A DNA stretch of 35,419 nt from an uncultured Spartobacteria bacterium (lineage in GTDB: Bacteria > Verrucomicrobiota > Verrucomicrobiia > Chthoniobacterales > Chthoniobacteraceae), in the NCBI GenBank assembly GCA_903901425.1, contig CAIURC010000174.1:1-35419 (forward strand). Direction: 5' to 3'. The notes beneath the pieces were generated by a model that was not told where the DNA came from, ran no database searches, and was given only the letters and a program-made list of their open reading frames with translations. Shown here piece after piece: positions 12,324 to 24,757 of this stretch. How positions within the stretch are numbered: the first letter of the stretch is position 1; each line of letters opens with the position of its first letter. A program made the translations under genes and the position numbers.

Positions 12324-12340
12324 TTGGCACTGAGTCTGCT
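12324..12340 (+). promoter_or_regulatory. Sigma-54 (RpoN) type -24/-12 promoter for glnA
   Basis: TTGGCACTGAGTCTGCT fits the sigma-54 consensus TTGGCACG-N4-TTGCW at all fixed positions but two; the invariant GG (12326-12327) and GC (12338-12339) have the exact 12-base spacing. Transcription would start near 12351, giving a leader of about 105 bases before glnA. Nitrogen control of glnA through sigma-54 and NtrC is classic, which supports the assignment. No NtrC site was recognised upstream. Confidence 0.65.
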
Positions 12341-12455: not shown

Positions 12456-13517
12456 ATGCCAAAGTACAAGTTGGAATACATCTGGTTGGACGGCTATCAG
12501 CCGACGCCCAACCTGCGCAGCAAAACCCTGATCAAGGAGTTTGCCTCCTTCCCGAAGCTGGAGCAGCTCCCGAACTGGGGGTTCGACGGGAGCTCGACGC
12601 GTCAGGCCGAGGGGCACAGCTCGGACTGCGTGCTCAAGCCGGTGGCCGTGTATCCGGATGCCACCCGGACCAACGGCGTGTTGGTCATGAACGAAGTTTT
12701 GCTGCCCGATGGCACCCCGCATCCGACCAACTCGCGGGCAACGATCCTGGACGATCCGGGTGCTTGGTTTGGATTTGAGCAGGAGTACTTCCTGTACCAG
12801 GATGGCGTGCCGCTGGGTTTCCCGAAGGGCGGCGGTTATCCGTACCCGCAGGGCAAATACTACACCGGTGTCGGCTACGACGCGGTGGGTGACATCGCCC
12901 GGCAGATTGTTGAAGAGCATCTCGACCTGTGTCTGGCGGCTGGAATCAACCACGAAGGCATCAATGCCGAAGTGGCCAAGGGCCAGTGGGAGTTCCAGAT
13001 TTTCGGAAAGGGCTCAAAGACCGCAGCCGACCAGATCTGGGTGGCTCGGTACATCATGATGCGCCTGTGCGAACAGTACTGCGTGGACGTGAACTGGCAC
13101 TGCAAACCGCTCGGGATGGACGTGGACTGGAACGGCAGTGGGATGCACTCCAACTTCTCCACGACCTACCTCCGCGAAGTCGGTGGCAAGGAATACTTCG
13201 AGTCCCTGATGGCTGCGTTCGACAAGTACAAGAACGAGCACATCGCCGTTTATGGACCGGACAACCATCTCCGGTTGACCGGCCTGCATGAGACCCAGTC
13301 CATCGACAAGTTCAACTATGGCATCGCCAACCGCGGCGCCTCCATCCGTGTCCCGCACAGCTTCGTGAACAACGGCTACAAGGGCTACTTGGAAGATCGC
13401 CGTCCAAACTCGCAGGGGGATCCTTACCAGATCGCCAGCCGGATTCTGCAGACGATCGCCACCGTTCCGACGCCGGGTGCCAAGAAGGCGCCCGCCAAAA
13501 AGACCGGGAAGAAGTAG
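12456..13517 (+). CDS. glnA: Glutamine synthetase, eukaryote-type (GSII)
   Basis: Makes glutamine from glutamate, ammonia and ATP in the cytosol. Length is 353 residues, typical of GSII and well short of bacterial GSI (about 470). The protein starts with the GSII beta-grasp domain (KYKLEYIWLDGYQPTPNLR, WGFDGSSTRQAEG), followed by the catalytic barrel with WFGFEQEYFL, NAEVAKGQWEFQIF, NGSGMHSNFST, LTGLHET and NRGASIRVP. The GSI adenylylation loop is absent, as expected. The C-terminus is an Ala/Lys-rich tail (GAKKAPAKKTGKK). The gene stands alone between a sigma-54 type promoter and a strong terminator, so it is probably monocistronic and nitrogen-regulated. GSII occurs in several bacterial groups including PVC members. 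Confidence 0.97.
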   Translation: MPKYKLEYIWLDGYQPTPNLRSKTLIKEFASFPKLEQLPNWGFDGSSTRQAEGHSSDCVLKPVAVYPDATRTNGVLVMNEVLLPDGTPHPTNSRATILDDPGAWFGFEQEYFLYQDGVPLGFPKGGGYPYPQGKYYTGVGYDAVGDIARQIVEEHLDLCLAAGINHEGINAEVAKGQWEFQIFGKGSKTAADQIWVARYIMMRLCEQYCVDVNWHCKPLGMDVDWNGSGMHSNFSTTYLREVGGKEYFESLMAAFDKYKNEHIAVYGPDNHLRLTGLHETQSIDKFNYGIANRGASIRVPHSFVNNGYKGYLEDRRPNSQGDPYQIASRILQTIATVPTPGAKKAPAKKTGKK

Positions 13518-13728: not shown

Positions 13729-15210
13729 TCAGGGGTTGGGCTTGCGGGTGAGTTCCCAAGCCCATTCGGGTTGTTTTTTTGCGTCTGTTCCGGGTGTGGT
13801 TGCATCCTGCTCGTCTCCCGCCTTTGCACCCACGGACCAGAGCCGGTAAGCATTCGGGGAGGTGCGTTGGTAGCGCATGCTCAGCCGATCGATGGGATCC
13901 AGCGCGGCGGAGCCGAGTTTCTCAAGGGGCAGTGAGTCCAAGGACTCCGGGAACGTGCCGTTTTTCTGGAAGGCCTCTTCGAGAGCGATTGCAAGAGCTG
14001 CCTGCCGGGATAGGCAGAGGCTCCGGATGAATGAGACCAAGCACGATTGGTAGCCGGGCGCTGCCATTTCAGACATGAGCCATTTGAGGCGTCTGAGGCC
14101 TTTCTCGGGCGCGGGATCAGGTTTATCCATCCATTCGGAAGGAGGTGGGCCGGAAAATACGGATTCCGCAGACCGGGCGAGTGAGTCGAGTCGTTGATTC
14201 ATCCGGATCTGGCTCTGAATAAACCAGCCCGCTGGATACAGAACCCAGAAAGGAGACGGTTTTCCAGGAAGGTAAGGGCCCATCAGATTTTGGATAGCCC
14301 GATTGTCGGAGGTGTTTAGAAGCCGGTAGCTAATCTGGTTGAAGAGTGCGCGTTCGCCGTTCAGTGCGGTGGCCCAAGCGCGGGTGGTTTCGGACTCTAA
14401 TCCTGTGGAGAACAGGGTTTGAAGCTTCGGGAGCTCGGAGGGCGTCCATTGACCGTTTGTAAGTCCGTGATGGAGAGCGCCGGCGGCCCCTGTCAGCCCG
14501 CTGTTTCGGACCAGGGAGGCAATGAGCGTGGGTTCCCTGCCCATTCTGTTGGCCAGTCCCACGGAATCGAGGAGGCATCCGGCGGCGGTACGAGAGTCGC
14601 CCTTTTCAAGATGGGCCGCTGCGCGCAAATTGCACACGGAGATGGCGGTCATCATTGCGCTCAGATGCGGCATTGGGGTGCGGAAATCCTCCCGCCAGTC
14701 CACGGGAAACCGGGTGTGCGGCCTTTGAAGCGCGGAGTGGAGCGCATCCAATTCGGGGCGGACCGTTTCCAGGGCTGCGAGCACATCGTTTGCTGGATTG
14801 TTGGATGGGGTGGCAAGGACTCCGGTTTCCCCGAAGTAAGAGGCCCATGCCTGAAGCGAGAAGGGTGTTTTCTGGGTGCCGTTCGGAGCATGGGGCCAGG
14901 CGGGCCTGCGCTTGCCGCCGCTGAGTTTGAGTGGGGCGAACCAGACAGCGTCTGAGTTTTCAAAGAGGTCCCGGACCATCGGGATTGCCGCGAAGTTGTC
15001 TTCGTCTTTGGGGTTTGGAGGGAGCACTTCCTCAATGGAAAGGGCGATGCTCCCTTTGCTGTTCACGTAAGCCTGCCAGTCCCTTTGGGCTCTCCATTTT
15101 TGCTGGAGGCAGAAAGCGGCCCAGAGTGCGGCGAGAAGTGCGCCAAAAAAAATCAGGGCTGTGAAGAAGCGGGCGCCGATCCGGTAGACGGAATGGTTAC
15201 GGATGTTCAT
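13729..15210 (-). CDS. Membrane-anchored protein of unknown function in a sigma/anti-sigma operon
   Basis: With the ATG at 15210, which overlaps the upstream stop as ATGA, the product has 493 residues; the longer frame upstream is only antisense of the neighbour. A transmembrane helix at about residues 15-37 (FFTALIFFGALLAALWAAFCL) follows a basic N-terminus. The remainder is a large soluble, mostly helical domain without a motif I know. Its final section (ALAIALEEAFQKNGTFPESLDSL, then DPIDRLSMRYQRT) resembles the C-terminal segment seen in many hypothetical proteins next to PVC ECF sigma operons. It is the last gene of the operon and a candidate effector or sensor for the sigma factor. No enzymatic role can be assigned. 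Confidence 0.8.
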   Translation of the reverse strand: MNIRNHSVYRIGARFFTALIFFGALLAALWAAFCLQQKWRAQRDWQAYVNSKGSIALSIEEVLPPNPKDEDNFAAIPMVRDLFENSDAVWFAPLKLSGGKRRPAWPHAPNGTQKTPFSLQAWASYFGETGVLATPSNNPANDVLAALETVRPELDALHSALQRPHTRFPVDWREDFRTPMPHLSAMMTAISVCNLRAAAHLEKGDSRTAAGCLLDSVGLANRMGREPTLIASLVRNSGLTGAAGALHHGLTNGQWTPSELPKLQTLFSTGLESETTRAWATALNGERALFNQISYRLLNTSDNRAIQNLMGPYLPGKPSPFWVLYPAGWFIQSQIRMNQRLDSLARSAESVFSGPPPSEWMDKPDPAPEKGLRRLKWLMSEMAAPGYQSCLVSFIRSLCLSRQAALAIALEEAFQKNGTFPESLDSLPLEKLGSAALDPIDRLSMRYQRTSPNAYRLWSVGAKAGDEQDATTPGTDAKKQPEWAWELTRKPNP

Positions 15211-15530
15211 GGGCGGAAATGCAGTTGGACTGCGAGCAAGGTGGGGCGTGCGGGCTTTTCGGATGCGCGGGCTTTGGACTGGACCAGGTCCGCCTGCTGT
15301 GGCGGTCGTGGGCCGGGTGCCGACAAAAAGCTGCTGACTGCGGCAATCAAGAGCCAGAGCGCTGCGAGCCCCATCCACGCTGCGGGCGGCGGCCAGATCC
15401 GACTCCACGCGGTTTGAGTACTGTTGTGGGCTGCCGCCAACACTTGCTCCCGGAGCCCTGCGGGCGGACTCTGGAATGGAAGGGAACGCAGGAGGTTTTC
15501 GAGCGGAATTTCAGGGTCTTCGGATTTCAT
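15207..15530 (-). CDS. Small membrane protein, putative anti-sigma factor
   Basis: A 107-residue protein with a short cytosolic N-terminal region (LLRSLPFQSPPAGLREQVLAAA), one transmembrane helix at about 52-69 (GLAALWLLIAAVSSFL) and a short exported tail. It lacks a zinc-binding HxxxCxxC motif. The call rests on position: it overlaps the ECF sigma gene by four bases and the following membrane protein by three or four. The PPAGLREQVL segment is common in short proteins next to PVC ECF sigma factors. Sequestration of the sigma factor at the membrane is inference. Confidence 0.7.
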   Translation of the reverse strand: MKSEDPEIPLENLLRSLPFQSPPAGLREQVLAAAHNSTQTAWSRIWPPPAAWMGLAALWLLIAAVSSFLSAPGPRPPQQADLVQSKARASEKPARPTLLAVQLHFRP

Positions 15531-16024
15531 GGATGGAGAAGAGGGCGGAGATGGGAGCCGAGTTTTTCAATGGCGTAGCGGTACCGGCTGGCCGCGGTGT
15601 TTGCAGGGATGTCGAGCACACGGGCGATTTCGACAAAGGTCAGGTCCTCCCAGATTTTCAGGTGAACAACGGCTCGTTGTTCCTCTGGCAGTTCCTGAAG
15701 CGCTTCAGCCACCCGTTTTCGGAAAAAATCGGCGTCAGGGTCTGTGGAAGGAGCAAAGAGCTCGGTCGGTTCCAATGCAGCACGTTCTGCAGTGCGGGTC
15801 CGGGAGGCGCGGTTGCGGGTTTGATCCACGCTGGCGTGATGAGCCATCCGGAAGAGGAAAGCGCGCAGGTCTCGGACTTCGGTGAGGCAGCCGGGTTTGC
15901 GGGCGATGCGCGCAAAGACTTCCTGAAGCGCGTCCTGGCTGTCCGCCTCATTCCGGGTGAGGTTGAGGAGGAACCCGTACAGGGCTTGGGCATGAGCATC
16001 GTAGATTTCTGAGAGGTCAAGCAC
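15527..16024 (-). CDS. ECF-type RNA polymerase sigma factor
   Basis: A 165-residue ECF sigma factor with only regions 2 and 4. Region 2 runs from YDAHAQALYGFLLNLTRNEADSQDALQEVF to DLRAFLFRMAHHASVDQTRNRASR (-10 recognition). Region 4 contains LQELPEEQRAVVHLKIWEDLTFVEIARVLDIPANTAASRYRYA, the helix-turn-helix for -35 contact. It is the first gene of a three-gene unit with a small membrane protein and a larger one, each joined by a four-base overlap. A signal relieved from the membrane protein presumably frees the sigma factor. No promoter matching an ECF type was recognised upstream, so auto-regulation is untested. Confidence 0.95.
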   Translation of the reverse strand: MLDLSEIYDAHAQALYGFLLNLTRNEADSQDALQEVFARIARKPGCLTEVRDLRAFLFRMAHHASVDQTRNRASRTRTAERAALEPTELFAPSTDPDADFFRKRVAEALQELPEEQRAVVHLKIWEDLTFVEIARVLDIPANTAASRYRYAIEKLGSHLRPLLHP

Positions 16025-16245
16025 GGGAAACTTCTGGGGATGGACGCAAGCCGTCTGAATTTCTGTCTAATCTGGTGGGGTGAGGCAGCCGAGGGGAAAG
16101 CGGGGGTGCGGGCTGTGGAGGGTTGTTCGGGGTGGTAAAAATCCGGCACAGAATATGGACACCTCAGTGGATGTGGCGCGAGTGAACGGGGTGGAGATGC
16201 CTGTAGATCGCCGGGGATTGCGGGGTTTGGGCCTGGGTTTCGGTT

Positions 16246-16262
16246 TTGGCACGGGTGCTGCT
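16246..16262 (+). promoter_or_regulatory. Sigma-54 (RpoN) type -24/-12 promoter upstream of UDP-glucuronate decarboxylase
   Basis: TTGGCACGGGTGCTGCT matches the consensus TTGGCACG-N4-TTGCW at every fixed position except one (C for the first T of the -12 element). GG at 16248-16249 and GC at 16260-16261 are exactly 12 bases apart. The start point would be near 16273, giving a leader of about 219 bases. Sigma-54 is known to control many exopolysaccharide and cell-exterior genes, which suits the downstream enzyme. Confidence 0.7.
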
Positions 16263-16274
16263 ATAGGCCGGGGA

Positions 16275-16378
16275 GTCCGCAACGCGGGCGCTTCATTTCC
16301 AAACAGGGGACGCAGCCCGATCGGAGGGTTCAAGCAACTGGACCGGGGGGAAACCAGATGCGAGGACGATCGGGCTGC
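16275..16378 (+). promoter_or_regulatory. Candidate structured leader RNA
   Basis: Three stems lie directly after the predicted start point. Hairpin 1: GTCCGC/GCGGGC (16275-16289) with a three-base loop. Outer stem: GCAGCCCGATCG (16312-16323) with CGATCGGGCTGC (16367-16378), 12 perfect pairs. Nested inside: GCAACTGG (16334-16341) with CCAGATGC (16354-16361), 7 of 8 paired, with the loop ACCGGGGGGAAA. A further perfect 7-bp hairpin (16427-16433 with 16450-16456) sits 25 bases before the ribosome site. No T-run follows the long stem, so it is not a plain terminator. I could not match it to a known riboswitch class. Confidence 0.55.
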
Positions 16379-16491
16379 AATTGGAATCTGGCCGGAGTCA
16401 TGAAAAACGGCCTTCGAAACTCAATCGGAAGACTGGGAGATGTATTTTGGTCTTCCCCGCGCACAGAGGGCTGCTTAGACAGGAAAGACAC

Positions 16492-17448
16492 ATGTTTACC
16501 CGCTCAGATTCGCGTCCTATCACGGTGGTCACCGGCGGAGCCGGCTTTCTTGGTTCGCATCTGACCGACCGGCTCTTGTCGGAAGGTCATCGTGTGATTG
16601 GTTTGGATAACTTGATCACAGGGAGCGTGGCGAACATTGAGCATCTGGCCGGGAACGAGAACTACAAGTTCATCCGGCAGGATGTTTCCAACTACATCTT
16701 CCTGCCTGACGACGTGGATTTCGTGTTTCATTTCGCGTCACCGGCCAGTCCGATTGATTACTTGGAGCACCCGATTCCAACCTTGAAGGTGGGTGCGTTG
16801 GGAACCCACAACACGCTGGGCTTGGCTAAGGCGAAGAAGGCGACTTTCCTGCTTGCATCTACTTCGGAGTGCTACGGGGACCCGTTGGTGCATCCGCAGC
16901 GCGAGGATTATTGGGGCAACGTGAACCCGATTGGGCCTCGCGGCGTATACGACGAGGCCAAGCGTTTTGCGGAAGCCATGACCATGGCCTACCACCGGTA
17001 CCATCATGTCGACACCAAGATCGTCCGGATTTTCAACACCTACGGTCCCAGAATGCGACTCAAGGACGGCCGGGTCGTGCCGGCCTTCATCGGTCAGGCG
17101 CTCAAAGGCGAGCCCCTCACGATTTTCGGCGATGGCTCCCAGACGCGATCTTTCTGTTACGTGTCAGATCTCATTGATGGGATTTTCCGTCTTGCGATGA
17201 GTGATTTCCATGAACCGGTGAACATCGGAAACCCGAGGGAGATGACCATCAAACAGTTTGCGGAGCAGATCCAGTCCATCACGGGGACGTCCTCGCAAAT
17301 TGAGTACCGCCCGCTGCCTGTGGATGATCCCAAGGTGCGGCAACCTGACATAACCCGGGCCCGAACGGTGCTGGGTTGGGAGCCGAAGGTGGATTTCGAC
17401 ACCGGGATTCGTCAGACCATCGAATATTTCCGGCCGCGCGTCGGGTGA
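16492..17448 (+). CDS. UDP-glucuronic acid decarboxylase (UDP-xylose synthase), SDR family
   Basis: Extended short-chain dehydrogenase of 318 residues that converts UDP-glucuronate to UDP-xylose with bound NAD, in the cytosol. The start at 16492 follows AGGAAAG by four bases; the open frame reaches 37 codons further but carries no conserved residues. NAD-binding [10 protein letters not shown] (14-23), GLDNLITGS, the Ser/Glu loop [10 protein letters not shown] (122-131), the family-specific [19 protein letters not shown] with catalytic Y153 and K157, then [10 protein letters not shown] and [12 protein letters not shown]. The [11 protein letters not shown] segment separates this family from UDP-glucose 4-epimerase and dTDP-glucose dehydratase. 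It likely feeds pentose-containing exopolysaccharide or glycan. It appears monocistronic, under the sigma-54 type promoter and structured leader upstream. Confidence 0.92.
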
Positions 17449-17577
17449 GCCGAGGGAAGAAGTTTCTTGAAATTTCCCATACACGGATAAACCGCACTTT
17501 TTTTTCTTCCCATCAGTGGTCAAATGGTTGAAAAAACAAAGGCTTCGAGGAAAAAACCTCTAAGAAAATCCCCCCCC

Positions 17578-18135
17578 ATGAAATTCTTCTTTTCCGCACT
17601 GGCTGTGCTCTGTCTCTCGGGTTTTGCAGCGAACGCGCAGAGCATGGTTCGCATTGGCGATGTCAAGATCACTAAGGTGAGTCCGTCTGCCCCGAAGACA
17701 CCTGACTTCCAGTTTACTGGAACGCCGAAGCGGTCGAAGTTGGGTCAGTGGCTTGAGGTGGAGGTGGAGTTTGAAACCAAGCCTGAAGACATTGATGAAC
17801 TGACCTTCAAGTACACCATCCTGATCGAGAAAAAGTTGCTGGATGGAGAGGTCACTCATGTGAATATTCCGAAGGGGAGAGAGCATTTTTCAGTCATGTA
17901 CGTGGCGCCGCGGACCTTGGAGAAGTTGACGGACGGCAAGGCGCTGACGGCTTCGAGCATTGAGAATGTGTGGGTGGAGGTATCGAAGCAGGGGCAAGTC
18001 CTGCACAAAGACAGCTTCAAGCCCGGCAACCAGCCGAACCTGCAGCACATCCAAGGGATGGTGCTGAACAAGATGGAGACACCTTTTGCGCCGCTGTACT
18101 TTGACCGCTACGAGGCTGTCAAGCATCAGAAGTAG
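17578..18135 (+). CDS. Exported protein at the Amuc_1102 position of the pilus locus
   Basis: The ATG at 17578 gives a clean signal peptide (MKFFFSALAVLCLSGFAANAQ) and a 185-residue precursor; an ATG at 17524 would add a Lys/Arg-rich stretch of 18 residues and is less likely. The mature part is beta-rich (SMVRIGDVKITKV, WLEVEVEFETKPEDIDELTFKYTILI) and resembles a single immunoglobulin-like sandwich. By position, directly before the PilM-like gene, it corresponds to Amuc_1102 of Akkermansia; the assignment is from gene order and type, not a remembered sequence match. It probably acts in the periplasm or at the surface with the pilus-like machine. Confidence 0.78.
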   Translation: MKFFFSALAVLCLSGFAANAQSMVRIGDVKITKVSPSAPKTPDFQFTGTPKRSKLGQWLEVEVEFETKPEDIDELTFKYTILIEKKLLDGEVTHVNIPKGREHFSVMYVAPRTLEKLTDGKALTASSIENVWVEVSKQGQVLHKDSFKPGNQPNLQHIQGMVLNKMETPFAPLYFDRYEAVKHQK

Positions 18136-18180
18136 GCGGAGTTGGCGGTTTTGTAGCGGTTTTTGTAGGAACACCCATCC

Positions 18181-19911
18181 ATGGCCGGATCCAAGCGCAT
18201 TTACAGCCTCAACCTCGGGACCCAGTCAGTGGTCTTGGCCGAGTTTCTGATGAGCCGGGGTGGCGGTTTGGTGCTGAACCGGTACCGTTCCAGTGGTCTG
18301 CTGGCAGATCCCACGGCGGACCCTACCCGGATGGCTCAGACGCGGATGGCTGTGGCTGAACTGGCGGGTTCGATGAAAGCCGGTGGGGGGGTGGTCAATT
18401 ACGCGGTCTCCGCTCAGTCGGTGTTCACCCGGTTTGTCAAACTTCCCTCTGTGGGGGAGGAGCAGGTGGACCAGATTGTGTCGTTCGAGGCGCAGCAGAA
18501 CGTCCCCTTCCCGATTGAGGAGGTGGTTTGGGGGTACCAACTGGTGGACACGGGCGGACCCGACATGGAAGTGGTGCTGGCGGCGATCAAGTCAGATCTA
18601 CTGGACGAGATCAACGGTGCGGTGGAGCACTCTGGGATGCGGACGGGTGTGGTGGACGTTTCCCCCATCGCGATTTACAACGCGTTCCGGTACAATTACA
18701 GCGATGTGGAGGGTTGTTCGCTTCTGGTGGACATCGGATCGCGGACCACCAACCTGATATTCGTGGATGGTCAGAAGGTTTTCAGCCGAAGCATTCCGAT
18801 CGGCGGATCAAAAATCACCGAGGTCGTAGCCAAGGATTTCAACGAAAACTTCAGCGACGCTGAGGAGCGGAAAAAGAGGGATGCCTTTGTCAGCTTGGGC
18901 GGTGCGTATGCGGATGCGGAGGACCCGAATCTGGCCCGTGTCTCCAAACTGGTGAGGAATTCCATGACCAGGCTCCATGCGGAAATTGCCCGGTCCATCA
19001 GTTTCTACCGGTCGCAGCAGGGCGGAGCGGCACCTGTCCGGGTTTACTTGTGTGGCGGCGGGGCCGGCATGCCGTACATGCGGGAGTTTTTCCACGAAAA
19101 ATTCCAGATGCCGGTGGAGCACTTCAACCCGCTTCGGAATGTTTCAGTGGCAGCAGGGGTGGATTCTGCGCAAGTGGGGGCTGAGGCCCACACCCTTGGA
19201 GAGTTGGTTGGTTTGGCGTTGCGGAGCACATCGAGCTGTCCGATGGAGTTGAACCTCCAGCCTCAGTCGGTGGTGCGCCGGAAACAGGCTTCTGAGGTGA
19301 CGCCGTTCCTGGTGCTTGCCGGGGTGAGTATTCTGGCCGGTCTTGCGGCTGGGTGGACCTACTTTGAACGGGCTTCCTCGATTGCAGCTGAGATGGTCCA
19401 GCGTGTGGAGCAGCAGTCTGCGCCGTTGAAGGAGTACGAGAAAAAAATCAAAACGGCCCGGGAGGATCTGCGCAAGGCCGAGGAGGCCGCGGCACCCTTT
19501 CTGAAGCTCGCGGAGGATCGAGAGCACTGGCCAAAACTTTTGCAGGATATCAATAGCCGGCTCAAAAGTGATCTGGTCTGGGTGGTGTCCTTCAAATCGT
19601 TGGAAGCGTTGGACTCTGCAGAAGCAAAATCCAAGGGGTTGAAAGCGAAGCTCACGGAATCCACGGAAAAGGGAAAAGCCAAGGCCTCTGGCCAGTCGAC
19701 GGTCCGTTCGGGGATCATGATCCAAGGATTGTACCTGAACAATCCGGATGGAGCGAAAGTGGTGGATGATTTCGTCAGGAATCTGGGAGAATCCGAGTTG
19801 TACGATGTGGCGAAGGATGAACTGAAGCGGTCCGTCCCGAATGAAAAGGAATGGGCCTACGAATTTTCAGTTCCACTGGTGTTCAAGACTGCTGGCGTTT
19901 CTGAGAAATGA
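18181..19911 (+). CDS. pilM: Type IV pilus assembly PilM-PilN fusion (Amuc_1101-like)
   Basis: 576 residues in two parts. Residues 1-345 are an actin-like PilM ATPase: phosphate-1 strand YSLNLGTQSVVLAEF, FVKLPSV, PFPIEEVVWGYQ, LLVDIGSRTTNLIFV (phosphate-2 type, 181-195) and YLCGGGAGMP (289-298). From about 355 the sequence becomes PilN-like: PMELNLQP, a transmembrane helix at 375-395, a coiled coil (about 400-450) and a small alpha/beta domain ending in the exported part. In proteobacteria PilM (cytosolic) and PilN (inner membrane) are separate partners; here one chain does both. The stop overlaps the start of the next gene as ATGA. Together with the next gene it would form the inner-membrane alignment complex of the pilus. 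Confidence 0.9.
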   Translation: MAGSKRIYSLNLGTQSVVLAEFLMSRGGGLVLNRYRSSGLLADPTADPTRMAQTRMAVAELAGSMKAGGGVVNYAVSAQSVFTRFVKLPSVGEEQVDQIVSFEAQQNVPFPIEEVVWGYQLVDTGGPDMEVVLAAIKSDLLDEINGAVEHSGMRTGVVDVSPIAIYNAFRYNYSDVEGCSLLVDIGSRTTNLIFVDGQKVFSRSIPIGGSKITEVVAKDFNENFSDAEERKKRDAFVSLGGAYADAEDPNLARVSKLVRNSMTRLHAEIARSISFYRSQQGGAAPVRVYLCGGGAGMPYMREFFHEKFQMPVEHFNPLRNVSVAAGVDSAQVGAEAHTLGELVGLALRSTSSCPMELNLQPQSVVRRKQASEVTPFLVLAGVSILAGLAAGWTYFERASSIAAEMVQRVEQQSAPLKEYEKKIKTAREDLRKAEEAAAPFLKLAEDREHWPKLLQDINSRLKSDLVWVVSFKSLEALDSAEAKSKGLKAKLTESTEKGKAKASGQSTVRSGIMIQGLYLNNPDGAKVVDDFVRNLGESELYDVAKDELKRSVPNEKEWAYEFSVPLVFKTAGVSEK

Positions 19912-20954
19912 ACTGGTTTAAACAGAACAAGGGTCTCAGTGCATACTTCCTGCTGGTACTTGCAGGGAGCGGATTTCTTGGATTCAAACTGGTCGATGCC
20001 CAGAGCCGCTTGGAGGAGTCGATGGATGCTTTTGGGGGTTCAGCCCAGGAACTCAATCGTCTTCGGGCTCTGGCTCCGTACCCTGAAAAACAGAATCTCG
20101 AACGCGTTCAGGCCCAGCAGGGGGAACTGAGCGCAGAGGTGGATCAACTCCGCGCGGGCTTGCGTGCCAACCAACTCTCGCTTGAACCGGTGACAGAGGT
20201 GGAGTTTCAAGACCGCCTCAAGGAGACCGTGGAGCGTATCACGGCCAGTGCAGCCAAGGCCGGGGTGGCGCTTCCGGAAAAGTTTTACATGGGCTTTGAC
20301 CAGTACCAGTCGGAGCCTCCCAAAAAGGAACTTGCCCCGCATCTGGCCCGTCAACTGAAGGCGATCGAATGGGTTATCAGCCAGATGATCGCCAACCGCG
20401 TCAAAGCCGTTGAGCGGCTTTCCCGAGACCCCCTCCCTGAGGAGGCTGAGAAGCAGAAGGGGGCAAAGACCGCCAAAGTTGAAAAGGCTGAACCGGACCG
20501 TGGCCAGGGGCGTTCCGGCAGGTTGGATGCCGCGTCTCAGTCCGGGGACGCGTCCAAGCCTGAAATTGTCAGGCACGGCTTTGAGGTGGGTTTTCGTTCG
20601 GCCCAGACGAGCTTTCAGAAGACTCTGAATGAGGTGGCAGCTTCGAAGGTGCAGTTTTACATTCCGACGCGGCTGGAGGTTCGGAACGAGAAGGAGAAGG
20701 GGCCTGCCAAGGACGAGGTGAAAACTGCCGAGGGTGAACCCGCTGCAGCCGAGGCTGCACCTGATGCATCCGCTCCGTCAGGTGTGGCAGGTGCGGCAGG
20801 TGCCAAATCGGCGGCCACGAAAGAGGCGGGCGAACTGCGGTACATCGTGGGGGAAGAACTGGTGGTTGTGGACCTCAGGTTGGATGTGGTGCACTTCTCC
20901 GAGCCAGAAGAAGGCCGGGAGAAAAAGAAGAAGAGTGGAGGAGGCTCGAAATAG
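19908..20954 (+). CDS. PilO-like inner-membrane protein, Amuc_1100 homologue
   Basis: 348 residues with an N-terminal transmembrane helix (about 9-29), a coiled-coil stretch (30-110) and two ferredoxin-like halves separated by a charged linker. Segments line up with Amuc_1100 as I recall it: GFDQYQSEPP (GFQVYSTQAP there), LKAIEWVISQM (LKAINSLVNKL), GFEVGFRS before LEVRNE, and GEELVVVDLRLDVVHFSEP (GKEQVFVQVSLNLVHFNQP). Amuc_1100 is the Akkermansia protein known for immune signalling in the gut, but its native role is in the pilus-like assembly. This copy has longer, more charged linkers rich in Lys/Glu/Ala. It follows the PilM-PilN fusion with a four-base overlap, matching the pilMNO order. 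Confidence 0.88.
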   Translation: MNWFKQNKGLSAYFLLVLAGSGFLGFKLVDAQSRLEESMDAFGGSAQELNRLRALAPYPEKQNLERVQAQQGELSAEVDQLRAGLRANQLSLEPVTEVEFQDRLKETVERITASAAKAGVALPEKFYMGFDQYQSEPPKKELAPHLARQLKAIEWVISQMIANRVKAVERLSRDPLPEEAEKQKGAKTAKVEKAEPDRGQGRSGRLDAASQSGDASKPEIVRHGFEVGFRSAQTSFQKTLNEVAASKVQFYIPTRLEVRNEKEKGPAKDEVKTAEGEPAAAEAAPDASAPSGVAGAAGAKSAATKEAGELRYIVGEELVVVDLRLDVVHFSEPEEGREKKKKSGGGSK

Positions 20955-20981
20955 CCCCCGTTCTTACGGCGAAAAGCGCGT

Positions 20982-22001
20982 ATGGCATTCACTAAAAAAC
21001 AGGCGGCAGTGGTCCTTGGAGTGGTAGCCCTTGCCGTGCTTGGGGGAAGCGTCAAGGTGGTCTTGGACGCCGGGAGTCTCGCCGAGCGGTTTTCGGCAAT
21101 CTCCAATCCGCCTCCAAAGAGCGACAAACTTCCCGTGCTTGAAAAAAAGCCGGTGGAAGACGCAAGGCAGAGTCTTGCCAAGCCTGCCCAGTGGACGGTG
21201 GGTGACGAGGGGAGCTCGCTGTTTGTTGCGAAGACGCATTTTGTGGATCCTGTGACGAACCGTCCCAGGCGCGCGGAGGACGGCAAGGGCATGGTGCATC
21301 CGCCGGTGCCCGACAAATGGATTTTGGGTAACAAGCTCAACTTGCTCTCGAAAACGTTGCTTCAGGAGGATCCGGACAAGGATGGCTTCACGAATTTAGA
21401 GGAGTATTTTGGCGAGGCTGGCAAAGCGCCTGTGGAGGGCGGTGCGGAGTCTTCCACCGACCCGAACGATGCTGCGAGTCATCCTCCGTACAGGACCAAG
21501 CTGTTTTTGAAGCAATTTGTGACCCGAGCATTCCTCTCGCTGTTCAAGGCGTACAATGGGGATGTCAAGAAGCCCGAGGACCTCGATTTCCAGATCAACA
21601 GTTACGAGAAGGGAGCTCAGAATCAGGCCAAGGTGGGCACCCAGTTTTTGAAGATGGGTGCAGTGGTGGGGAACACCCCATACCGGATTGAGAAATTCGA
21701 TTACAAGACGGTGAAGAATGCGAAGACCGGGGGTGAGGATGATGTGTCCGAGTTGACACTGAGGAATGTGGAGACTCAGGAGCCCGTGATTCTGGTTCTC
21801 AACAAGGTCACGGAGTCGCCGGACTCTTTTGCCGTGCTCACCTTTGAACTGACCAAGCCGGGCAAAGACTTCCGGGCTCAACGGATGAAAGACTTTGCTT
21901 TGCCCGGTACTGATGAAAGTTATAAGCTGATTGACATTTCGAAGGAAAGGGCCCTAATACGCCGGCCCTCCGGCGAGGAGTATGAGATCCGAGCCAAGTA
22001 G
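20982..22001 (+). CDS. Pilus-locus periplasmic protein, Amuc_1099 position
   Basis: 339 residues with an N-terminal transmembrane or uncleaved signal helix (about 8-28) and an exported domain. Near residues 130-142 DPDKDGFTNLEEY has the spacing of an EF-hand or thrombospondin type-3 calcium loop, and STDPNDAASHPP follows, a pair often seen in exported PVC proteins. The C-terminal half is beta-rich without a recognised motif (YRIEKFDYKTVKN, VSELTLRNVETQEPVILVLN). By gene order it is the counterpart of Amuc_1099 and may play the part PilP plays in proteobacteria, bridging the PilO-like protein and the secretin; that is inference. It begins 27 bases after the previous stop. Confidence 0.82.
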   Translation: MAFTKKQAAVVLGVVALAVLGGSVKVVLDAGSLAERFSAISNPPPKSDKLPVLEKKPVEDARQSLAKPAQWTVGDEGSSLFVAKTHFVDPVTNRPRRAEDGKGMVHPPVPDKWILGNKLNLLSKTLLQEDPDKDGFTNLEEYFGEAGKAPVEGGAESSTDPNDAASHPPYRTKLFLKQFVTRAFLSLFKAYNGDVKKPEDLDFQINSYEKGAQNQAKVGTQFLKMGAVVGNTPYRIEKFDYKTVKNAKTGGEDDVSELTLRNVETQEPVILVLNKVTESPDSFAVLTFELTKPGKDFRAQRMKDFALPGTDESYKLIDISKERALIRRPSGEEYEIRAK

Positions 22002-22048
22002 TCGGAACTGTTTCTGCAGCAAACGGAGTTGACACAGAGAATTTTTCC

Positions 22049-24757
22049 ATGACCAGACACCCCATCACTCGCATTGCCGCCATCACGGTTGGAGTTTTCG
22101 CCACGGGAGCCTTGCAGGCTGAAGATAAGCCTCGTGCCGGAACACCGCTGAAGTCTGGCGCAAAGCCGAGCGCAATCGAGGCGGCCGCCGATCGTGAAAA
22201 AGCGCGGCGCGAAGCGGCAGTGGATGCCGCGCTGAAGGGGCCAATGGCCGCAGCCGACTCCGCGCTGGCTGAAAAGGATTACGAGAAGGCTTTTGTCAAC
22301 TACCGGGCGGTTCTGGATTTTCTTCCGTCCTCGCCGCTGAGTGAGAAGCCAAGGGAGCATGCTCTGGACCGCATGTGCACTTCGGGGGTGAAACTGGCTG
22401 AACAGCGGATTGCCGAAGGCCGGTACTCAGATGCGGAGAATGTTCTCCAGACCATTCTCGAGGACCGGTACAATCCGAAGTGCCGGGATGCAGTGATCAT
22501 TCTGGCCCGCTTGGAGACGCCTGGTTACTACAACAAAACGGTGACCCCCAAGTTCCGGGCGAATATTGAGGAGGTCAAGAAGCTGATGCTGGAAGCCGAG
22601 GGTTTCTATCAGACCGCCCGACTCGATCTTGCTTTCAAACGGTGTGAGCAGGTTCTGACCATCGACCGTTACAATGTCGCCGCTCGCAGGATGGAGGAGC
22701 GGATCAACCAGCTCCGGGATAAGTCTGCCGTGGCGGGTTACAACGAGGCCCGGTCCCGAGCCATGTGGAAGGTGGATGATGCGTGGGGAAATCCCGTCCG
22801 GAAATTCGGCTCGGAAAAACAGAGCGTTGTCGTTCAGGAAACAGAGGACGTGGCGGGGACGGCAAGGATCAACAGCAAGTTGAACCGGATCATCATTCCG
22901 AAGATTGAGTTCAAGGATTCCACGATCCGCGAAGCCATCGAGTACCTGAAGGTCCAAAGCGCGAAGCTTGACACTCAGGAGAGCGATCCAGCCCTGAAGG
23001 GCGTCAACATCGTTTTGAAGCTGGACTCGGGCGGCTCAGCGGCCGCCCCGGTTGCTCCGGCTCCAGACGCTGCCGGAATGGCAGCTGCTGCGATTCCTGG
23101 GCTGGAGCTTCCCGCGGCAGCACCCGCAGGGGGCGGTGGCGCGGCGATGGGCGGAGCACCCAGTGGCGACATCCCCATCACCCTCACCCTGGCGAATGTG
23201 CCCTTGGGTGCGGCACTGAAGTATGTCACCAACCTCGCCAACCTGAAATTTAAGGTGGATCAGTACGCAGTCACCGTGGTGCCAATCTCGACTCCCACGG
23301 ATGTCCTGCTGACCAAAAACTTTAGTGTTCGGCCCAACTTCATTGGGAGGAGTCCGGCGGGAGGTGGTCCTGGCGCTCTGGATGCCGGCGGCGGCGGGCC
23401 TGGCGCCGGTGCGGGTGCTATCGCTGGTAAGATTGACGCCAAGGAATTTCTGATTGCGCAGGGTGTAGCCTTCGGACCGGGGGCAACCGCTTCCTACCAA
23501 GCTGCCTCGAGTAAACTGGTTGTCCGGAATACCGCCGAGAACTTGGAGCTGATTGGGGAACTGATTGCAGCCAACGAAACCGGCGGGCAGCCGGCCCAGG
23601 TGGACATCGAGGCGAAGTTCGTGGAGATCACCCAGAACAACATGAAGGAACTCGGGTTCGATTGGCTCCTTGGGAGATTCAATGTGAATCAGGGTGGTGT
23701 TTTTGCCGGCGGAGGCACCCCTGGAACTTCTCCAGCGCTTGTAGGCACTGATTACACCTTTAACCAGCCGTCATATACTGATAAAACCGGCCGGCAGTTT
23801 GCGCAGGGGCCCGTTGGAAACAATCCCGTCACGGCTGGGAACCGGAGCGGAAGCAACGCGATCAGTGCAAACGCCATTGACGCCCTGCTTTTCGGCGCGG
23901 CCGGATCGTCCAGAATGGCACCCGCCATCATGACATTGGCTGGGATTTTCACGGATCCGCAGTTCCAACTGGCGATCCGCGCATTGAACCAAAAGAAGGG
24001 TGTCGACCTGCTTTCGGCGCCGCGCGTCACGACGCGGAGCGGACAGAAGGCGACTATTGAAATCACTCGGAACTTCAGGTACCCCACGGAGTTCGACCCG
24101 CCGCAGATTCCCCAGCAGGTGGGGGCCCAGGGAGGCGGGGGCGTCTCGATTGGTGGGGTGGGTGGTGCGGGTGGTGCTGGCCAGCCCCAGAACTTCCCGG
24201 TGACTCCGACTACGCCGACTTCGTTTGAGACCCAGAAAGTGGGTGTGACGCTCGAGGTGGAGCCGACGATCGGGCCGGATGGTTATACGATCGACATGCA
24301 ACTCACTCCCCAGGTGGTGGAGTTTGAAGGGTTCATCAACTACGGCAGCCCGATTCAGACAACCTCCTTGAATGCGCTGGGTCAGCCCGTGGTGAATATT
24401 GTCACCCCGAACGTGATCAATCAGCCGATCTTCAGTACTCGCACGGTTACCACGAACGTGAGCATCTACGATGGAAGCACGGTGGTTCTTGGCGGACTTA
24501 TCCGTGAGGATGTCCAGAAAGTGGAGGACAAGGTACCGCTTCTGGGAGATCTGCCGATGGTGGGACGCCTTTTCCGATCCAGTGTTGACCAGCACATCAA
24601 GCGGAATCTGATGATCTTTGTTTCCGCGCGTCTGCTGACTCCCTCAGGAGAACTCGTCAGAAACAATGAGGAAACCGAGGAGATTGTGGAGACGGTGGCG
24701 CTTCCGGAGGTGGCAGCTCCCCAGATCAATCCGGACCTGCCTCTGATGCCGAAGTGA
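22049..24757 (+). CDS. Type IV pilus/type II secretion-family secretin (Amuc_1098-like)
   Basis: A 902-residue outer-membrane channel subunit with a signal peptide (MTRHPITRIAAITVGVFATGALQA). Residues about 55-230 are helical and TPR-like (AEKDYEKAFVNYRAVLDFLP). Next come N-domains (about 285-600, beginning IIIPKIEFKDSTIREAIEYL) interrupted by two Gly/Ala/Pro-rich inserts, then the secretin beta-domain: KVGVTLEVEPTIGPDGYTI, STRTVTTNVSIYDGSTVVLG, GLIREDVQKVEDKVPLLGD, LPMVGRLFRSS and LMIFVSARLL. The last motifs are hallmarks of the secretin C-domain. It is the final pilus gene and ends seven bases before coaE. No prepilin or motor ATPase (pilB/pilT) is in the window. Confidence 0.95.
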   Translation: MTRHPITRIAAITVGVFATGALQAEDKPRAGTPLKSGAKPSAIEAAADREKARREAAVDAALKGPMAAADSALAEKDYEKAFVNYRAVLDFLPSSPLSEKPREHALDRMCTSGVKLAEQRIAEGRYSDAENVLQTILEDRYNPKCRDAVIILARLETPGYYNKTVTPKFRANIEEVKKLMLEAEGFYQTARLDLAFKRCEQVLTIDRYNVAARRMEERINQLRDKSAVAGYNEARSRAMWKVDDAWGNPVRKFGSEKQSVVVQETEDVAGTARINSKLNRIIIPKIEFKDSTIREAIEYLKVQSAKLDTQESDPALKGVNIVLKLDSGGSAAAPVAPAPDAAGMAAAAIPGLELPAAAPAGGGGAAMGGAPSGDIPITLTLANVPLGAALKYVTNLANLKFKVDQYAVTVVPISTPTDVLLTKNFSVRPNFIGRSPAGGGPGALDAGGGGPGAGAGAIAGKIDAKEFLIAQGVAFGPGATASYQAASSKLVVRNTAENLELIGELIAANETGGQPAQVDIEAKFVEITQNNMKELGFDWLLGRFNVNQGGVFAGGGTPGTSPALVGTDYTFNQPSYTDKTGRQFAQGPVGNNPVTAGNRSGSNAISANAIDALLFGAAGSSRMAPAIMTLAGIFTDPQFQLAIRALNQKKGVDLLSAPRVTTRSGQKATIEITRNFRYPTEFDPPQIPQQVGAQGGGGVSIGGVGGAGGAGQPQNFPVTPTTPTSFETQKVGVTLEVEPTIGPDGYTIDMQLTPQVVEFEGFINYGSPIQTTSLNALGQPVVNIVTPNVINQPIFSTRTVTTNVSIYDGSTVVLGGLIREDVQKVEDKVPLLGDLPMVGRLFRSSVDQHIKRNLMIFVSARLLTPSGELVRNNEETEEIVETVALPEVAAPQINPDLPLMPK

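Follow-up and report, generated by a model that had tools for sequence, protein, structure and literature searches.

Positions 16273 to about 16390 of the window (the whole stretch of 35,419 nucleotides analyzed here) very probably constitute a gene for a small regulatory RNA that depends on sigma-54. Comparison among genomes indicates that this RNA belongs to a previously uncatalogued family, distributed across an order of Verrucomicrobia and encoded just after a sigma-54 promoter. A search of the open-access literature on small RNAs in Verrucomicrobia or Chthoniobacter found nothing relevant. The coordinates of the features discussed below are collected in Table 1.

Table 1. Location of the RNA, its promoter and its downstream neighbor in the window
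Feature	Position	Strand	Basis or remark
Sigma-54 -24/-12 promoter TGGCACGGGTGCTGCT	16247..16262	+	Sequence; pattern or one-letter variant in 48/48 inspected members of the RNA family
5' hairpin GTCCGC-AAC-GCGGGC, 6 bp	16275..16289	+	About 2 nt past the predicted start
Conserved RNA core	16298..16386	+	Covariance models R1 and R2
Outer stem P2, 5' strand	16312..16323	+	Perfect 12-bp pairing with 16367-16378
Outer stem P2, 3' strand	16367..16378	+	Pairs with 16312-16323
Inner stem P3 and apical loop	16334..16361	+	Sequence; all 7 P3 pairs doubly changed in the family
UDP-glucuronate decarboxylase-like (UXS) gene	16492..17448	+	Pfam GDP_Man_Dehyd/Epimerase; 106 nt downstream of the RNA core
TAGACA, candidate -10 box of UXS's own promoter	16476..16481	+	TTAGA at 16475-16479

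Promoter and structure of the RNA

An earlier note on this DNA had described a near-consensus -24/-12 element with one mismatch, followed by a 6-bp hairpin, a perfect 12-bp stem, an inner stem paired at seven of eight positions and a further 7-bp hairpin, and all of these were found where it had placed them. The promoter element has its GG at 16248-16249 and its GC at 16260-16261, departs from TGGCAC-N5-TTGCW by a C for T in the -12 box, and by its position predicts a transcription start at about 16273. The inner stem (P3, 16334-16341/16354-16361) encloses the apical loop ACCGGGGGGAAA at 16342-16353. The separate 7-bp hairpin (16427-16433/16450-16456) lies outside the conserved RNA and has no support as a part of it. 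The same note had been unable to fit the leader to a riboswitch class and had suggested an undescribed RNA, which agrees with our Rfam 15 scan: nothing reached the gathering score in the window, nothing appeared up to E 5 for 16100-16600, and there was no match over the RNA in 20 relatives.

Taken alone, neither the promoter nor the fold of the window copy settles the matter. The sigma-54 pattern with at most one mismatch occurs at three sites in the window versus 1.2 expected, and the promoter site taken alone is within chance expectation. The leader (RNA strand, 16273-16500) folds at -83.5 kcal/mol, which is more stable than shuffled sequence (z of -2.5), although 5 of 200 shuffles did as well. 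We take conservation in relatives, as read from their sequences, to be the decisive evidence beyond chance.

The promoter is conserved together with the RNA. TGGCA-N7-TGC was present no more than 90 nt upstream in 46 of the 48 family members inspected, and with one letter relaxed (TGG(C/T)A-N7-TGC or a one-letter variant) a promoter was found within this distance in every one of the 48; by comparison, 0.4-0.5% of background 90-mers fit the pattern. The promoter sequence was left out of both covariance models described below, and its place directly upstream of the RNA in the 48 members is what is expected of a sigma-54-dependent small RNA, whose promoter should stand at a fixed spacing. The sigma factor is likewise available to the host: of the 212 genomes of the order, 195 encode sigma-54, the window's own among them (G000:C164).

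The 5' hairpin begins 19-29 nt after the promoter GG in the 24 members examined (24-29 nt in 23 of them), and its stem letters change pairwise among these members (GTTCGT/ACGAAC, GTCCGC/GCGGAC, ATCTGC/GCAGAT). In families f6, f9 and f13 the stem starts about 6-15 nt past the predicted start; in most other families the 5' hairpin is inserted between the two.

Farther upstream, CTCTGT was seen 38-40 nt before the promoter GG in seven members (upstream regions of L137-L171), and its reverse complement, ACAGAG, 30-31 nt before the GG in four, a nearly fixed distance. This element is a possible activator binding site and is treated here as a lead, since the window copy and many others lack it.

Distribution of the family

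A DNA search of relatives gave weak matches to the hairpin part of the query in five genomes (G001, G003, G008, G018 and G026), in each of which the match sits away from the UXS gene. The sequence common to these relatives is TCCAAAYAGGGG-GCAG...GGACCGGGGGGAA, and their stems differ in a paired fashion. Two covariance models of the core were built, R1 from six sequences and R2 from 28 members. The window core scores 73.8 bits (E 4.8e-17) against R1, of which it is one of the six seeds, and 62.9 bits (E 2.8e-13) against R2, of which it is one of the 28 training sequences. R1 detected one strong copy each in 12 of 40 genomes of the family, six of them new (E 1e-16 to 1e-8); in the window's genome itself only one copy was convincing, and across the order 31 of 213 genomes had a match. 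With R2 the count for the order rose to 66 of 212, spread over at least eight families. R2 was almost order-specific, since members of the order made up 31 of the 32 matching genomes in a sample of the class and 5 of 6 in a sample of the phylum; the carrier order is probably Chthoniobacterales. In about two thirds of the genomes of the order the RNA went undetected, whether because it is truly absent or has diverged, because the genomes are incomplete or because the filters were strict. Among the groups without any match are f8 and, within the window's own family, genera g2 and g4, though sigma-54 is present in them.

The RNA is usually present in one copy per genome, with more than one in some (G047 and G080). 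At one locus of G047 (L185:6343-6551), a single sigma-54 promoter is followed by two hairpins in tandem that share the loop TTCGGGGGGA, and another contig of this genome carries one more copy. Some model matches fell on the wrong strand (G071, G095), the stem being palindromic, and their strand was reassigned by hand from promoter and U-run. Weak extra matches in L168 and L170 were rejected as RNA copies; they resemble instead the terminator of a small lipoprotein-like gene.

Covariation, coding strand and the apical loop

The earlier note had proposed a check for covariation in the 12-bp and inner stems, and relatives carry compensatory double changes in both. In a model-fitted alignment, 22 of 24 pairs showed double changes. 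The same was true of all 19 pairs tested in a MAFFT alignment of 31 members, which was made from sequence only and is therefore not biased towards structure. In the latter alignment, 98.9% of P2 cells are paired, with double changes in 12 of 12 pairs, and 66.8% of P3 cells, with double changes in all seven. Doubly changed cells numbered 112, versus 40 in shuffles and 21-42 with the partners slid. P2 also holds about 22 G-U cells versus four non-standard cells. Since these G-U cells would be A-C mismatches on the opposite strand, the molecule under selection is the RNA of the plus strand.

The apical loop is near-invariant in the 28-31 members compared, reading CCGGGGGGAA in most members of f1, f4 and f12, CTTGGGGGAGGGA in f6 and TCGGGGGGGAA in f13. 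Because the exposed G-run stays fixed while the stem beneath it varies, the loop is probably where the molecule does its work, and the tandem hairpins of G047, with their shared loop, fit this view.

Partner proteins

No hfq gene was found in any of the 212 genomes of the order, with controls positive, so the protein that a base-pairing RNA of the Qrr type would depend on was not detected. A csrA gene is present in 44 of the 212, the window's genome among them, and its distribution does not track that of the RNA. Therefore, both Hfq-dependent pairing and a role as a general sponge for CsrA seem unlikely. A sponge would work through GGA-containing loops that titrate an RNA-binding protein, as CsrB and RsmY do with CsrA, and unpaired G-rich stretches do recur in the members (AGGGGA, GGAGGG, GGGGGGA), and the window's genome encodes CsrA. 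However, many carriers of the RNA lack CsrA, including f4, f9, f12, f13 and most of f1 (for example G003, G008 and G018). We consider a protein sponge unlikely overall, with a protein other than CsrA as a possible ligand.

Genomic neighborhood and the UXS gene

The earlier note had also proposed that the structure is a cis-regulatory leader tied to UXS and thereby to exopolysaccharide sugar supply. Transcription from the sigma-54 promoter would then read through the hairpin, and the structure would control UXS in cis. (The UXS substrate was assigned by homology and earlier naming; no NCBIfam equivalog cut-off was reached.) The UXS start does lie 106 nt downstream on the same strand, the hairpin has no U-run, and a simple scan found no sigma-70 consensus site between the RNA and UXS. 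However, this part of the note did not hold up in relatives. UXS genes 72-90% identical to that of the window are without the RNA upstream, and neither the sigma-54 promoter nor the hairpin precedes those UXS genes that were inspected within the genus and the family, so the RNA is not conserved before UXS. These genes may instead have a promoter of their own: 9 of 28 UXS genes, including all four of the window's genus, have (T/C)TAGA among the 24 nt ahead of the start (background, 0.8% of 24-mers), and the TTAGA box before the window's UXS ATG hints at such a promoter.

Furthermore, the RNA is found at other loci in relatives, and its neighborhood in the window differs from theirs. It adjoins ligA in 13 of 21 loci, has a BadF/SIS-domain sugar gene upstream in seven genomes, and is followed by a convergent CopG-type antitoxin-like gene in at least six loci, with more seen by eye; neighbor genes were called with a simple ORF script, and some orientations are approximate. 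Where the downstream gene is convergent, as it often is, a leader role is excluded. For the family as a whole, the convergent downstream genes and the U-runs of several families mark an independent transcription unit. A UXS leader in the window is thus distinctly unlikely, and the comparison points to an RNA that is independent of UXS and whose position before it is happenstance. The case illustrates how a gene neighbor can mislead: the sugar gene adjacent to the RNA here is not its conserved partner.

Several other features of these neighborhoods were observed. A CopG/BrnT-type toxin-antitoxin-like pair is convergent to the RNA in several genomes (L172-L184, L136), in a neighborhood conserved with ligA. 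In the window, an ECF-type sigma factor gene (15527-16024, minus strand) is divergent from the RNA, with a 559-aa reading frame (13729-15408) behind it. Downstream of UXS, 17578-24757 holds an Akkermansia-like pilus cluster (Amuc_1102-, PilM-, Amuc_1100- and Amuc_1099-like genes and a secretin), then coaE and rho. A GlnII-like glutamine synthetase gene (12456-13517; the assignment is below the equivalog cut-off) is preceded by a perfect sigma-54 site, TGGCACTGAGTCTGCT at 12325-12340, 116 nt from its start. The site is consistent with sigma-54 control of nitrogen metabolism at that gene; as a pointer to nitrogen as the signal that induces the RNA, it is simply a lead.

Transcript end

A T-rich tail or U-run directly follows the long hairpin in 9 of 9 members of f13, 8 of 10 of f6, 3 of 3 of f9 and 5 of 7 of f4, and is rare in f1 (2 of 12). 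In f13, f6, f9 and f4 the hairpin would therefore double as a terminator and the transcript would be compact. The window copy has no U-run after the large hairpin, as the earlier note had observed; its 3' end is thus unmarked, and read-through into UXS is possible.

A hairpin with a U-run right after the promoter could also be an attenuator or riboswitch driven by sigma-54, in which a ligand opens the terminator and lets transcription enter the next gene, and the G-rich loop is conserved as an aptamer might be. However, the next gene is often convergent and the downstream genes vary between families, and we regard this explanation as very unlikely. A further reading, in which the inverted repeat has no RNA function and is simply mobile or repetitive DNA, is scarcely credible, despite its palindromic stem and its different location in the window's genome and in relatives, given the usual single copy per genome, the fixed promoter upstream, the G-U pairs favored on one strand and the syntenic position at ligA that 13 of 21 loci share.

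Proposed mechanism and candidate targets

A small RNA gene of its own remains the reading that we prefer. The comparisons establish its conserved structure and promoter, its strand, its lineage and its independence from UXS; from them we infer that it is transcribed, where the transcript begins and ends, that it acts in trans and what its loop does, as follows. Transcription would begin near 16273, where an enhancer-binding protein would enable sigma-54 RNA polymerase to open the promoter. The transcript would form two hairpins, a short one at the 5' end and a long, covarying one on which the fixed G-rich loop CCGGGGGGAA is displayed, and in several families this long hairpin together with the U-run would serve as the transcription terminator. 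The RNA would then act in trans and without Hfq, its exposed G-run pairing with C-rich sites in mRNA or being presented to a protein. Action in trans through the G-rich loop is the likeliest mode; base pairing in trans, as the specific form of it, is a tentative proposal to which we would give not quite an even chance.

Pairing with C-rich mRNA is possible, but it is unsupported for any target. C6 runs before starts showed no clear enrichment, C6-ATG being no commoner than C6-GAT or C6-TGA in the window's genome (G000), and C6-ATG is frequent also in G011, a genome with no detected RNA. The most attractive candidate was the Amuc_1102-like gene, whose ATG immediately follows a run of eight C residues (17570-17577); many relatives also have a C-rich leader at this gene, among them genera in which no RNA was detected. 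This leader was rejected as a target: in G000, 29 of 222 starts equaled or surpassed its pairing energy, which places it only in the better 13% of starts, and its pairing with the RNA was ordinary in G018 and G026 and poor in some relatives.

A broader and doubtful conjecture is that sigma-54-controlled, Hfq-independent small RNAs occur across the order, each with a terminator hairpin whose fixed G-run loop pairs with C-tracts at mRNA starts, and that they form, as a mirror image of RepG, a main post-transcriptional switch of Chthoniobacterales. In an order apparently without Hfq and mostly without CsrA, this covarying RNA, usually single-copy and accompanied by a sigma-54 promoter across many genera, offers a ready way in to the study of post-transcriptional regulation and of the signals that the sigma-54 activators sense.

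Comparison with known small RNAs

Qrr RNAs act together with Hfq. In the Vibrionaceae these small RNAs depend on sigma-54, and enhancer-binding proteins switch them (PMC10162802). The RNA described here resembles them in its predicted sigma-54 control and in its multiple copies in some genomes (G047, G080), but it shows no sequence or Rfam relationship to them, and Hfq was not found in its order. GlmY and GlmZ also have sigma-54 promoters. These are small RNAs of cell-envelope precursor signaling in Enterobacteria (PMC7073468), and the BadF/SIS-domain gene next to the RNA in seven genomes recalls that sugar context; a neighbor alone proves no link, however, and there is no Rfam relationship.

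RepG of Helicobacter pylori, a small RNA in a bacterium that has no Hfq, recognizes homopolymeric G-repeats in the leader of its target mRNA (PMC8322730). The present family resembles it in its hosts, in which no Hfq was found, and in the homopolymeric run of its hairpin loop, but the polarity would be inverted, with the G-run in the small RNA and the C-run in the putative target, and no homology was found. As candidate counterparts to the RepG target, C-runs do occur before starts; they are not enriched over controls, and the best candidate pairing is unexceptional. As far as Rfam can tell, the RNA is homologous to none of Qrr, GlmY/GlmZ or RepG. NrsZ and other nitrogen-regulated small RNAs that depend on NtrC and sigma-54 likewise carry a sigma-54 promoter on the small RNA. 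The family described here has no Rfam relationship to these either, and nitrogen as its signal is a lead only; it nevertheless shares with them a sigma-54 promoter on the RNA itself, in a window where the GlnII-like gene also has a perfect sigma-54 site.
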